NCBI GenBank assembly: GCA_947462815.1
Contig: CANHQR010000017.1
Location: 1 to 60,515 of the forward strand
DNA: 60,515 bases
Reading direction: 5' to 3'
Source of the DNA: Pseudobdellovibrionaceae bacterium
GTDB taxonomy: Bacteria; Bdellovibrionota; Bdellovibrionia; Bdellovibrionales; JAMPXM01
Positions 11,221 to 55,875 of this stretch are shown here, piece after piece. Numbering within the stretch: position 1 is the stretch's first letter; each line of letters starts with the position of its first letter. The translations under genes and the position numbers were made by a program. Below the pieces are notes generated by a model that did not search any database, was not told where the DNA came from, and saw only the letters and a list, made by a program, of their open reading frames with translations.

Positions 11221-11295
11221 CTCCCTCCATCGCCACTCCCTCCATCGCCACTCCCTCCATCGCCACTCCCTCCATCGCCACTCACTCCATCGCCA
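11221..11295. repeat. Five tandem 15-bp repeats
   Basis: Five 15-mers of CTCCCTCCATCGCCA run head to tail; the last (11281-11295) differs by one base (CTCACT). On the minus strand this change creates the TGA stop of the next gene inside the array. The repeats stay in frame with that gene and would encode Val-Ala-Met-Glu-Gly units if read through. Confidence 0.95.
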
Positions 11296-25657: not shown

Positions 25658-26437
25658 ATGAATTCAACGGAACTTGAAATCTCGAAGGTCGACTCCGGCA
25701 CTCCTCTCGAAGATTGGCCGATCGTTGAAAGCCGCCTCAGCCCAGATCAACTCGCCAAGCGCAGCCTCGATGTCGGCTGTGGCCCGCACAAGCTCGAGGA
25801 CTCAGTCGGCATCGATATTCGCAAACTCCCCGGTGTGGATGTCGTCGCCAACCTCGATCGACATCCGTGGCCGCTTCCGGAATCGCACTTCAAGTTCATC
25901 CGCTGCCAACATGTGATCGAACATTTAAGCGACTTGTTTGGACTTGCGCGAGAAATGTACCGCGTCTCTGCCGCGCATTCGGTGATCGAGTTCAAAACTC
26001 CACATTACTCTTCTTACGCGAGCTGGGGCGATCCCACTCATCGCTGGCATTTTGCCTTGGGGAGCATTCCGCAACTTTTCGAAATGGCGGTTGGGCCTCA
26101 GGCCTATCGCGTGCGTCGCTTGGAACTGAAGTTCACTGGCTCGGTCTTGGATGTTTTCGGGTGGCTGATCTACAAGCTCTCCCAAAAAACCTACGAGAAA
26201 CACTTTGCGTGGATCTTCCCGGCCAACGAGATTATCTGCGAAATTGAAATTCTGAAGTTAGCGAAGCCAGAGCCCCTGGCAGCAGGCCAAGAGCTCCGTC
26301 ACATCGAAACAGCACCGGGCGCTGATCAGCCGCCGATCAGGCGCTTAAAGAAGCCCGCAACTTTTTTGCCAATGCCATCGTTCTTCGCGGGCATTGGATT
26401 CGGCGGCGGAATCTTCTTGCGATCACCACCACCGTGA
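25658..26437 (+). CDS. SAM-dependent methyltransferase
   Basis: 259 residues from ATG 25658. Motif I is SLDVGCGPHKLEDSVGIDI, followed by VDVVANLDRHPWPLPESHFKFIRCQHVIEHL (motif II/III region of class I type-11 methyltransferases) and REMYRVSAAHSVIEF. The substrate is unknown. The last about 37 residues (GADQPPIRRLKKPATFLPMPSFF...) are encoded by DNA that on the other strand is the end of the DEAD-box helicase gene, so they are probably a non-conserved run-on extension. Confidence 0.85.
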   Translation: MNSTELEISKVDSGTPLEDWPIVESRLSPDQLAKRSLDVGCGPHKLEDSVGIDIRKLPGVDVVANLDRHPWPLPESHFKFIRCQHVIEHLSDLFGLAREMYRVSAAHSVIEFKTPHYSSYASWGDPTHRWHFALGSIPQLFEMAVGPQAYRVRRLELKFTGSVLDVFGWLIYKLSQKTYEKHFAWIFPANEIICEIEILKLAKPEPLAAGQELRHIETAPGADQPPIRRLKKPATFLPMPSFFAGIGFGGGIFLRSPPP

Positions 26438-28194
26438 CCTCGCTTGCCACCAGGACCCTCGTGACGCTTGCCTTGCGTTTCGGATCGACGCCCTTCATGA
26501 CGACGCCCCGATCCAGTCCCTGGACCCGTCTGACCAGCATTGCGATCGCGATCTCGTCCGCGTCCTTGGCCCTGCGAGCCCTGACCAGGTCGACGACCTT
26601 CGTGACGATTTTCATATCGACGAGGTCCGCCCGCCGACGGTCCCTGTCCTGAGCCCACCGGTGTCGGTCCATTCGCGGCCGCTGGGGCATTTGGATCTCG
26701 CGGCGCGTGCTCACGCTGCGGTCGCTGACCGTCTCGTTGGTGGTCTCTCTGATGGTCTTTCTGATGGTCTCGTTGGCCTGCACGCGGACCATCACGGCGT
26801 CCGCCATCGCGTCCACCACCGCGCGGTCCTCCGTCTCGACGACCGCCATCGCGACCGCCGCCACGGCGTGCTCCGTCGCGCCGGCCCTCGCCGCCTTCAC
26901 GTCCACGACGCGGCTCCTCGCCGCGAAACTCGCGCGAAAAATCTTTGCTGCCGCGATCCGAAGACATGGCTTTGAACTCTTTTGGAATCTGAGCGTCGTC
27001 GAGGAAATCCGTATCCACTTTGTGCTTCAAGTAGCCTTCCACACGAGCCAAAGCATCCACGTCGCGATCGCTCACCAATGAATAGGCGATGCCATTAGCT
27101 CCCGCACGACCCGTTCGACCGATGCGATGCACGTAGTTTTCTGGATCATCGGGCAACTCGAAGTTCACCACCATGTCGACGCCCTTGATGTCGAGGCCTC
27201 GGGCCGCCACATCCGTCGCCACAAGAATGTTCTTGTCGCTATCGCCTTTGAATTGCTCCATCACGCGATTGCGCTGCGATTGCGTGAGCAAAGAGGAGAT
27301 CCCCACCGCCGGCAAATCATTGTCGTTCAAAAACTGCGTGATGCGCGGCACGTTCATCTTGAAGTTCGAAAAGACGATGGCTTGGCGGGGGTTGTGCTTT
27401 CGCAAAAGCGCCAATAGAAACGCACCCTTTTCGTCTTGGCCGAGGTGAATGATTTTATCGACGACGTTCTCAGCTTTGGCCTGGTCGCGCGAAACGTTGA
27501 ACTCCACCGGCATCGCGCCGAACTGGTAGGCGGTGTTCAGCACATCCAGGTTCAAGGTCGCCGAGAACACCATGAACTGGCGATCCTTTGGGATGCGCGT
27601 GAGGATGTACTTCATGTCGTCTTTGAAGCCCATATCGAACATGCGATCGGCTTCGTCGAACACGATGCCCCGCACCTGTTTCAAGTCGACGACATTGTCT
27701 TTGTACAGATCGAGCAAGCGCCCGGGGGTCGCGATCACGAACTCGACTCCACCGCGCAAACCTTCCTTCTGCTTATCGTAACCGACGCCACCGTAGACCG
27801 ATACGGCGCGCAGGCCCGACTCGCCACCAAATTTCAACACGTTCTCATAGACTTGTTCGGCGAGCTCGCGCGTCGGCACCAGCACCAGAATGAAATTCAT
27901 CGCCACCCAATCCGGGAAGCGACGCGCACGCACCAGCTCGAGCTCTTCGGCGCTCAAGCCCTCTTCTTTTTGTCGAGATCGCAAAATGCGCTCCATGATC
28001 GGCAACACGAAAGCGGCCGTTTTACCCGTGCCCGTTTGCGCGAGTCCTGCGACGTCTTTGCCCTCCATGATGGACGGCATCGCCGTTTTTTGAATCGGCG
28101 TGGGTTCAGCGAAGCCGAGCTTATCGACGGCGGCCTGAAGTTGGGGATGGAGCTGGAGGTCTTTGAAACTTTGGATCGGTGAATCGGAACTCAT
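26326..28194 (-). CDS. DEAD-box RNA helicase (RhlE-like) with a long basic Gly/Arg/Asp/His tail
   Basis: 622 residues from ATG 28194, with a GAGG ribosome binding site; the frame continues upstream without family sequence. The motifs are complete: Q motif (FAEPTPIQKTAMP), AQTGTGKT, PTRELAEQ, TPGRLLD, DEAD (VFDEADRMFD), SAT (VFSAT), ARGLDIKGVDMV and HRIGRTGRAG. From about residue 400 the tail is low complexity, with RRDGG/RGGGRDGGRRDG runs and a DHQ(R/K) heptad, ending in KKIPPPNPMPAKNDGIGKKVAGFFKRLIGG-like sequence. Such tails bind RNA and can drive condensates. Probable role: cold or ribosome-assembly RNA remodelling. Confidence 0.95.
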   Translation of the reverse strand: MSSDSPIQSFKDLQLHPQLQAAVDKLGFAEPTPIQKTAMPSIMEGKDVAGLAQTGTGKTAAFVLPIMERILRSRQKEEGLSAEELELVRARRFPDWVAMNFILVLVPTRELAEQVYENVLKFGGESGLRAVSVYGGVGYDKQKEGLRGGVEFVIATPGRLLDLYKDNVVDLKQVRGIVFDEADRMFDMGFKDDMKYILTRIPKDRQFMVFSATLNLDVLNTAYQFGAMPVEFNVSRDQAKAENVVDKIIHLGQDEKGAFLLALLRKHNPRQAIVFSNFKMNVPRITQFLNDNDLPAVGISSLLTQSQRNRVMEQFKGDSDKNILVATDVAARGLDIKGVDMVVNFELPDDPENYVHRIGRTGRAGANGIAYSLVSDRDVDALARVEGYLKHKVDTDFLDDAQIPKEFKAMSSDRGSKDFSREFRGEEPRRGREGGEGRRDGARRGGGRDGGRRDGGPRGGGRDGGRRDGPRAGQRDHQKDHQRDHQRDGQRPQREHAPRDPNAPAAANGPTPVGSGQGPSAGGPRRYENRHEGRRPGQGSQGQGRGRDRDRNAGQTGPGTGSGRRHEGRRSETQGKRHEGPGGKRGHGGGDRKKIPPPNPMPAKNDGIGKKVAGFFKRLIGG

Positions 28195-28548
28195 GAAGGG
28201 CCTCGGAAAAAGAAAAAGGAGCGTCCGTGCACAGCAAGTCTTTGCGCTCGATCTCAACTTGGCAGTTTTGCATCATGGCGCCGGCGTTCAATCGGCGGGC
28301 GCGAGGGGTCGACAGCAAACGCCCGAGCTGACGTCGCCGCGGCGACGCAAAACACTTCGACCAGAAGTCGGGCTGAGTGTGCTGAAGAACAAGTGACTGC
28401 GTTAAGATGGGCATTTTGGGTCTGGCTGGGGCCTGAACTCAGGCCTGTGACGCTGACAGTTAAACACGCGCCGCAAGAAGAATCTCCTGCGACTTCTTCC
28501 AGCTTAAGCGAGGCCGGAGGGAGAGTCAAAACGCCCTGGTCCATGAAA
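28195..28548. other. Intergenic region upstream of the helicase
   Basis: About 350 bp with no supportable gene. It probably holds the helicase promoter. Frames here on both strands lack a start context and any family sequence. The 28549-28717 inverted-repeat element follows. Confidence 0.4.
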
Positions 28549-28717
28549 CTGGTCTCGTTGAGTGTTGCGGGCTCAGCGAGGGACGCCGCTTCCCTCTACG
28601 ATGGCGACTCAACCCAGATATGCTCCAAAAATGAGCACCCCATAAAAGAGCATTTATTTGGTGATATTCGACACTTGGATCGAAACGCCGAGCTTTCGCA
28701 ACACTCAATGAGACCAG
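28549..28717. repeat. 169-bp element bounded by 21-bp inverted repeats
   Basis: The 21 bases at 28549-28569 are the reverse complement of 28697-28717 with one mismatch. The pairing extends imperfectly inward (GCTCAGCG against GCTCGGCG). Inside are further hairpins: GAGGGA/TCCCTC (28578-28583/28591-28596) and AAATG/CATTT around 28630-28660. No open frame of note lies inside. The right arm overlaps the last codons of the alpha/beta hydrolase gene. It could be a MITE-like relic or a structured RNA/terminator shared by the flanking genes. Confidence 0.7.
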
Positions 28718-29562
28718 AAGCTTGTGAGCTCCGCGAGAAACGCTTCCGGCGCCTCCGCGTGCAGCCAGTGCCCCACCCCTGGAATCTCGACCGCATGGAT
28801 CAATCCCGGTCGGCGGGCCGCGATGCGCTCAAACTGCTCGCGAGGCAGGTCGCGGCTGAGCTCGCCCCTCAACCAAAGCGTTGGACAGCGAAGTTTGTCG
28901 ACCAGATCCCAGCGATCTCGATCGCGTCCGGCCTTGAGAGCCGCGCGCAGGCCGACCGCATCAAATCGCCAGGTCGCTGAGCCATCCTCAAGCTCGGTGA
29001 TGTTGGAGTAGAGCCAAGGTGCCAACATGGGCGAGGCCCCCGGGAACTCGCGCTGAAAGCTCTGGTCGAACCAAGCTTTGGCCGCCGCTTTGTCCGCAAA
29101 AGGCACGGGCACGCGATCGAGGATTCGTTGCGCGATTGAGCCCCCGGCGACCTCGATCATTTCGGGACCAATGTCGACGATCACGAGGCGCTCCACGCGC
29201 TGCGGATAGATTGCAGCGAAAGCGAGCGCCACGCGCCCCCCCATCGAGTGTCCCACAAGACGAATCTGCGACCAGCCCAAGTCGTCGATCAGCAAACGCA
29301 AATCATCCGCCATGCGCTCCGGCGTGTAGGCATCGGGATCAGCGGCCAGATCGGCGTGAAAGCTGCGCCCATGGCCACGTTGGTCGAAGGCGAGCACACG
29401 ATGCGTGGCCTCGAACTCGCGAGCGATGCGCCGAAAATTGAGCGCATAGCCCATGACCCCATGAAGAAAGACAATTGCGGGAGGTCCGGGCTCGCCCCGA
29501 TGCGGCTCACGGCCTGTCAACAAGGTAAAGAACTGCGATGGGGTGGGTGAAGATTTCGACAT
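28705..29562 (-). CDS. Alpha/beta-fold hydrolase
   Basis: 285 residues. Motifs: IVFLHGVMGYALNFR (oxyanion HG), LAFDQRGHGRSFHA, the nucleophile elbow VGHSMGGRVALAF, LVIVDIGPE, and the catalytic His in IPGVGHWLHAEAPEAFL. The pattern (HSMGG, VDIGP, VPFADKAAAKAW...) is close to the YbfF/epoxide-hydrolase-like esterases. The substrate is unknown. Its last codons lie in the right arm of the inverted-repeat element. It is divergent from pcnB, and the two starts overlap the same short region. Confidence 0.9.
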   Translation of the reverse strand: MSKSSPTPSQFFTLLTGREPHRGEPGPPAIVFLHGVMGYALNFRRIAREFEATHRVLAFDQRGHGRSFHADLAADPDAYTPERMADDLRLLIDDLGWSQIRLVGHSMGGRVALAFAAIYPQRVERLVIVDIGPEMIEVAGGSIAQRILDRVPVPFADKAAAKAWFDQSFQREFPGASPMLAPWLYSNITELEDGSATWRFDAVGLRAALKAGRDRDRWDLVDKLRCPTLWLRGELSRDLPREQFERIAARRPGLIHAVEIPGVGHWLHAEAPEAFLAELTSFWSH

Positions 29563-53741: not shown

Positions 53742-53756
53742 GGGGATTAGGCCCTC

Positions 53757-53812
53757 GGAATTTCGCTTCTGGAATTTCGCTTCTGGAATTTCGCTTCTGG
53801 CATTCCGCTCGC
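53757..53812. repeat. 14-bp tandem repeat after elbB
   Basis: Three exact copies of GGAATTTCGCTTCT (53757-53770, 53771-53784, 53785-53798) and a fourth, diverged copy (53799-53812). It lies between the convergent elbB and the CHAP-like gene. The junction of each unit reads TTCTGG, the core shared with the arrays at 55785 and 59147. Confidence 0.95.
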
Positions 53813-55784: not shown

Positions 55785-55875
55785 AGCTTTCTGGTGCAGC
55801 TTTTTGGCGCGACCTTCTGGCGCGGCCCTCGAGCCCGGCCCTCGAGCCCGGCCCTCGAGCGCGGCCCTCGAGCGC
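55785..55875. repeat. Compound 13-bp repeat upstream of ddl
   Basis: Four 13-bp units of GGCCCTCGAGC(C/G)C at 55824-55836, 55837-55849, 55850-55862 and 55863-55875, each with a CTCGAG palindrome. They are preceded at 55785-55823 by looser units with TTCTGG or TTTTGG cores. This 54-bp left part aligns without gaps to 59147-59200. The rest of 55677-56021 holds no gene. Confidence 0.9.

Follow-up and report, generated by a model that had tools for sequence, protein, structure and literature searches.

A probable 169-bp MITE beside a hydrolase gene and its IS1-like family found at the 3' ends of genes in Bdellovibrionota

The 169-bp sequence with inverted ends analysed here is very probably a MITE, a non-autonomous miniature element whose terminal repeats of about 20 bp would be recognised by an IS1-like transposase that moves it in trans. 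It lies between a hydrolase gene and a helicase-like gene in the window, which is the whole stretch of 60,515 nucleotides that was analysed, from a Pseudobdellovibrionaceae bacterium. As a MITE the element is ordinary. The behaviour of the family to which it belongs is not: whereas numerous small IS insert broadly and cause damage to genes, copies of this family are found mostly where neither neighbouring gene is harmed. From comparison of the sequences we lean towards the view that this phylum-wide IS1-like family and its MITEs target the 3' ends of genes, on or beside the stop codons and mainly where genes converge, and that the element ends, which start with AA, rebuild the stops (T/AA, TG/A and TA/A), the spacer or the terminator often being swapped out. 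This would be a general safe-site strategy of a single transposase that is not tied to one gene, and that perhaps senses terminators or termination complexes.

The features of the window that are needed for the description are the following.

28549 to 28569, plus strand: left terminal inverted repeat of the probable MITE, recognised by the complementarity of the arms and by matches of this end elsewhere in the genome
28570 to 28696, no strand assigned: interior of the probable MITE, 127 nt, with no coding evidence; other members of the family match only over the terminal 20-32 bp
28697 to 28717, minus strand: right terminal inverted repeat of the probable MITE, holding the last three hydrolase codons and the stop
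28705 to 29562, minus strand: alpha/beta hydrolase gene (Pfam Abhydrolase_1 and Abhydrolase_6), ending inside the right arm
28705 to 28707, minus strand: TGA stop of the hydrolase gene, made of right-arm sequence
26326 to 28257, minus strand: DEAD-box helicase-like ORF, the next gene in the same direction as the hydrolase

The two arms are of 21 nt each, are complementary at 20 of 21 positions and stand 127 nt apart. They form the sole 21-mer inverted repeat of the window (at most one mismatch, within 400 nt), and a comparable inverted repeat was present in one of 100 copies generated from the window by a first-order Markov model. The near-perfect inverted ends seen in the initial annotation are confirmed. 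That annotation had also noticed that the right arm supplies the end of the hydrolase gene, and indeed the last three codons (W, S and H) and the TGA are arm sequence, with the stop at +9 relative to the TGG of the element end. The genes on either side of the element have the same direction, the one upstream of its left end not being convergent. A target-site duplication, which had been suggested as a check, was looked for by inspection at the flanks of the 169-bp element and none was found. Elsewhere in the window three short tandem repeats were observed (11221-11295, 53743-53809 and 55785-55867, with units of 15, 14 and 13 nt, respectively), two of which are in or near runs of repeated motifs.

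Folding of the 169-nt strand gave -73.4 kcal/mol (z -7.7), and a fold of this strength is what would be expected if the 169 bp were a structured RNA, a terminator or an attenuator between the hydrolase and the helicase, an option also put forward at first. We regard this as very improbable. The fold arises mostly from the arms; folded alone, the interior is near background on both strands (z -1.9 on the plus and -2.2 on the minus strand), so that the interior described at first as non-coding with nested stems kept the former attribute and its stems turned out to be weak. Moreover, no Rfam family reached its gathering score anywhere in the window, the interiors of the family members are unrelated, and the only site given by a terminator scan of positions 28150-28760 (28370-28358, with 1.1 sites expected) is outside the element. 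The structured RNA was rejected on the empty Rfam result together with the near-background folding of the interior.

The genome of origin (3.43 Mb in 107 contigs) contains the whole 169-bp element once and its ends many times. The search for copies thus gave a divided answer, since the multiplicity of the ends supports a mobile element and the single copy of the whole had been named beforehand as part of its refutation. The end pattern with up to three mismatches was found in 14 places against none for the reversed control, and a looser, degenerate pattern in 24 places against two. Most of the good matches are inverted pairs. Five such pairs bound small elements, of 169 bp (the one in the window), 245, 167, 207 and 150 bp, and others bound the IS copies C5 (1069 bp) and C11 (1298 bp, both measured from the TGG), which carry transposase ORFs between their ends; the C5 type is represented once more by a copy that contig ends split (C65 and C72). 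Of 20 positions in the left end of the window element, 18 agree with the IS ends of C5 and C11. Because the ends are multi-copy, paired and shared with full IS of the same genome, the element is best read as a MITE of that IS family, and the associated transposase that had been proposed as a check is provided by these IS. Three marks of a MITE are found here: a short element has terminal inverted repeats, these are common to an autonomous IS of the genome, and the interior holds no transposase gene. As for copy number, there are five small elements with common ends, each with a different interior: they align with each other only over the terminal 20-32 bp, save for one weak match of 44 bp (75%) to a partial copy. 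No duplications were found at the own-genome copies that were inspected, and their mode of insertion is presumed from the relatives, among whose IS copies 18 of 65 carry a target duplication that is exact and 8 nt or longer. The window MITE would have been mobilised by one of the transposases described here.

In the same genome two family ends in the same direction were observed 135 bp apart (C11:10042-10061 and C11:10177-10196; locus L179 of genome G000). We read this pair as a partial or nested element; it has no matching opposite end among the matches listed.

The ends might instead be REP-like repeats that decorate gene ends and form pairs where genes converge, with no transposon involved. 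They are indeed near gene ends, and a few matches are single or point the same way (C11 10042 and 10177). However, most of the good matches are inverted pairs that also flank transposase genes, and the exact target duplications just mentioned belong to IS copies. This explanation is very improbable and is already largely refuted by the transposase-bearing copies. Of the options first listed for the element, the REP-like one therefore falls, the ends bounding elements and not standing alone as palindromes, and the MITE is retained.

In other named genomes the exact end pattern gave two records with one match each (Bacteroidetes and Porphyromonas), which were taken as chance. A related end pattern gave match numbers in the relatives like those of the reversed control, hence the window-type end sequence seems, by these pattern searches, to be particular to its own genome.

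The ORF at 26326-28257 was named from its sequence and is presumably DEAD-box helicase-like, judging by its motifs. The hydrolase-helicase order is present in six of 12 loci of relatives. The hydrolases of the relatives terminate at about the same position or somewhat farther, the shortest of them (L189) ending in ...EELKKFF compared with ...LAELTSFWSH in the window, and this is consistent with the element having entered on or next to the native stop. The MITE probably inserted there, after which the repeat would have given the hydrolase its three last codons and a new stop. With its right arm carrying these codons and the stop, the window copy fits the gene-end pattern of the family described below.

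The transposase ORF of the C5 IS has 300 aa. It had no Pfam match and matched the NCBIfam IS1 model (NF033558) weakly, with 24.8 bits against a cut-off of 100, and thus does not reach the curated score of the IS1 family. All of the 12 aligned transposases, from this and related genomes, match the IS1 model weakly (best E 2.6e-16). Invariant in the 12 are D126, D204, E237, a block N250-H251...R257, and cysteines near the N-terminus. With regard to the catalytic acidic triad, N250 seems to occupy the position of the IS1 glutamate, and E237 may serve in place of that residue. The target duplication of 8-10 bp, mostly 9, that goes with the IS1 family is seen in the copies that have a duplication (13 of 48). 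A search of solved structures by sequence gave no convincing transposase relative. Within the family and order, 20 of 39 genomes carry this kind of transposase; of 240 genomes sampled across the phylum, 81 do. No copies were found in plasmids or phages, and none of 27 pattern matches in viral contigs was confirmed.

The position of the elements relative to genes was counted with genes defined by ORF calls, many of the genomes being drafts. An end was scored as lying at a stop when the stop of an ORF of at least 100 codons was within -14 to 0 of the element end (AACTGG; TGG in the own genome). Because the search for ends demanded CTG or TGG/TGA close to the tip, part of the end consensus is set by the search itself; the flanks are not. 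Long ORFs in the own genome extend up to the elements and terminate at their edges. Nine of 19 ends are at stops there, among them the two ends of the 150-bp MITE and likewise those of the C11 IS. The five MITEs have ten ends, of which four satisfy the strict rule, or five if the hydrolase at +9 is counted.

A first set, mapped in related genomes, comprised 48 elements whose ends were acceptable (three belong to the own genome), after exclusion of seven of 55 for poor ends (L146, L149, L152, L154, L157, L167 and L174). In this set 62 of 95 ends are at stops (95 of the 96 ends were usable for the background because of flank length), compared with 1.2% of 19,000 random flank positions. The stops peak at -5 to -1 (47 stops), and there are at most two per 5-nt bin from -300 to -21. 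At least one end is at a stop in 44 of the 48 elements, and both ends in 18. The second set was obtained from 30 loci and came to 17 elements in other genomes, since one locus had no ends (L209), three had poor ends (L215, L217 and L222) and nine were already in the first set; one end (L204R) was dropped for its short flank. Here 21 of 33 ends are at stops, with 14 of 17 elements having at least one such end and seven having both, again against a background of 1.2%. Taken together, 58 of 65 IS copies mapped in the phylum have at least one end at a stop and 25 have both, counts in which L127 and L134 are the same insertion in two species. The seven elements outside the rule are L140, L148, L163, L171, L202, L204 and L210.

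Most of the flanking ORFs are genuine genes of full length, often convergent ones. Pfam matches were obtained for six of ten sampled proteins in the own genome and for nine of ten and four of ten in the other samples. At L138 the ACT domain of the left gene ends at residue 403 of 408 and the FAD-oxidase domain of the right gene at 458 of 459, and the carbonic anhydrase domain at L124 extends to residue 323 of 325. Domains that reach so near the protein ends indicate that these flanking genes are not cut in the middle.

Target duplications of 9-12 nt accompany 13 of the 48 copies of the first set, 11 being exact and two having one mismatch; in the clean cases they are mostly of 9 bp and situated at native stops. 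When the target sites were rebuilt, 12 of the 13 insertions proved to lie no more than 10 nt from the native stop of an ORF of at least 100 codons, the exception being L171. Some duplications, read by eye, start at overlapping convergent stops, either TTAG (L212 and L218) or CTAA (L214). With AACTGG as the first bases of the ends, a T, TA or TG immediately before the element becomes a full stop codon, and stops of this completed type (positions -1 and -2) make up 22 of the 62 counted.

For copies without a duplication, empty sites were sought in sister species and three could be resolved, in all of which 18-44 nt of intergenic DNA had been replaced. At L128 it was the 18-nt spacer between two convergent stop codons, at L122 about 44 nt with a terminator-like hairpin and a T run, and at L159 about 20 nt. 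The insertion at L124 is common to the sister species, and the sequences at L139 are too diverged for the comparison. The target DNA missing beside the element could have been lost during the insertion or through a later deletion on the element side. Adjacent deletions are known for IS1.

Some individual junctions deserve description. At L159 (genome G038) the IS lies a few bases past the T run of the hairpin terminator of the left gene, and the empty site in two sister species retains the terminator. L131 (G028) and L133 (G035), from two species that belong to one genus, are separate insertions at a shared convergent junction, with different target duplications offset by a few bases. The junction of L168 (G020) has a different insert in every relative that was compared (L272, L273, L274, L277 and L278): it is an IS in G020, an ORF of 284 codons in G129, in G030 an ORF which by its motif resembles a REP-associated transposase, and in G033, G107 and G245 a stretch of about 200-450 nt that holds no long ORF. 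This convergent junction looks like an insertion hot spot.

A gene-end position could also result if the elements, while being MITEs and IS as proposed, inserted anywhere and survived only between gene ends. The genomes are compact, with 87-89% coding by ORF calls and median convergent gaps of 39, 17 and 68 nt in the ORF-based gene maps (400 kb from three genomes) used as a null model, and this agrees with survivorship. Nevertheless, if insertion were uniform across intergenic DNA as a whole, about 8% of elements would have one end at a stop and less than 1% both, and restriction to convergent gaps would give 19-34% and 0-5%. The observed 58 of 65 and 25 of 65 exceed both predictions, although these nulls are uniform over DNA and a model with equal hits per convergent junction would fit better. 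IS3-type elements in the same genomes had none of 12 ends at stops in six elements (L224, L225, L227, L228, L229 and L231), a small control without significance test in which loci and ends were picked by eye and seven of 13 loci were dropped for want of convincing ends; no DDE_Tnp_1-type IS was found for this purpose in 10 genomes. The two separate insertions at one junction (L131 and L133) are a further point against survivorship. We therefore consider survivorship alone possible but doubtful, and on the sequence comparisons an active preference for gene ends seems likelier. The gene-end position would then reflect a choice of target by the transposase, with selection contributing.

One of the nearest known systems is IS1, which has a target duplication of 9 bp and itself inserts broadly. 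The present family resembles IS1 (NF033558), by profile in 12 of 12 members, in the cysteine-rich N-terminal part, the helix-turn-helix and the catalytic domain, as well as in the 9-bp duplications of the clean cases. It differs in being far under the cut-off (24.8 against 100 bits for the C5 member), in its single ORF of about 300 aa, in ends that start with AACTGG and in the insertion next to stop codons. We found no report of such stop-codon-adjacent insertion by an IS1-like family in the open-access literature, as far as excerpts such as those of PMC3196728 go. Bacterial MITEs in general (review PMC10969869) are likewise short and non-coding, with terminal inverted repeats common to an IS in the genome; apart from the weak 44-bp match, the interiors found here match neither each other nor the IS beyond 20-32 bp. 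The IS that target REP sequences (PMC1525189) share the extragenic preference, but their target is a repeated palindrome, whereas at the targets here no shared repeat was seen, only stop codons and gene ends. Stop codon, terminator hairpin and convergent transcription are the candidate target signals, and all are directly testable. If gene ends are picked by the transposase itself, a single protein would provide a compact way of inserting harmlessly at many loci. The corresponding comparison is with Tn7 at glmS (PMC2918618): in both cases the insertion is just past a gene that is left intact, but Tn7 uses a single conserved gene together with a dedicated target protein, and the present family is found at many different genes and has, as far as seen, one transposase ORF.
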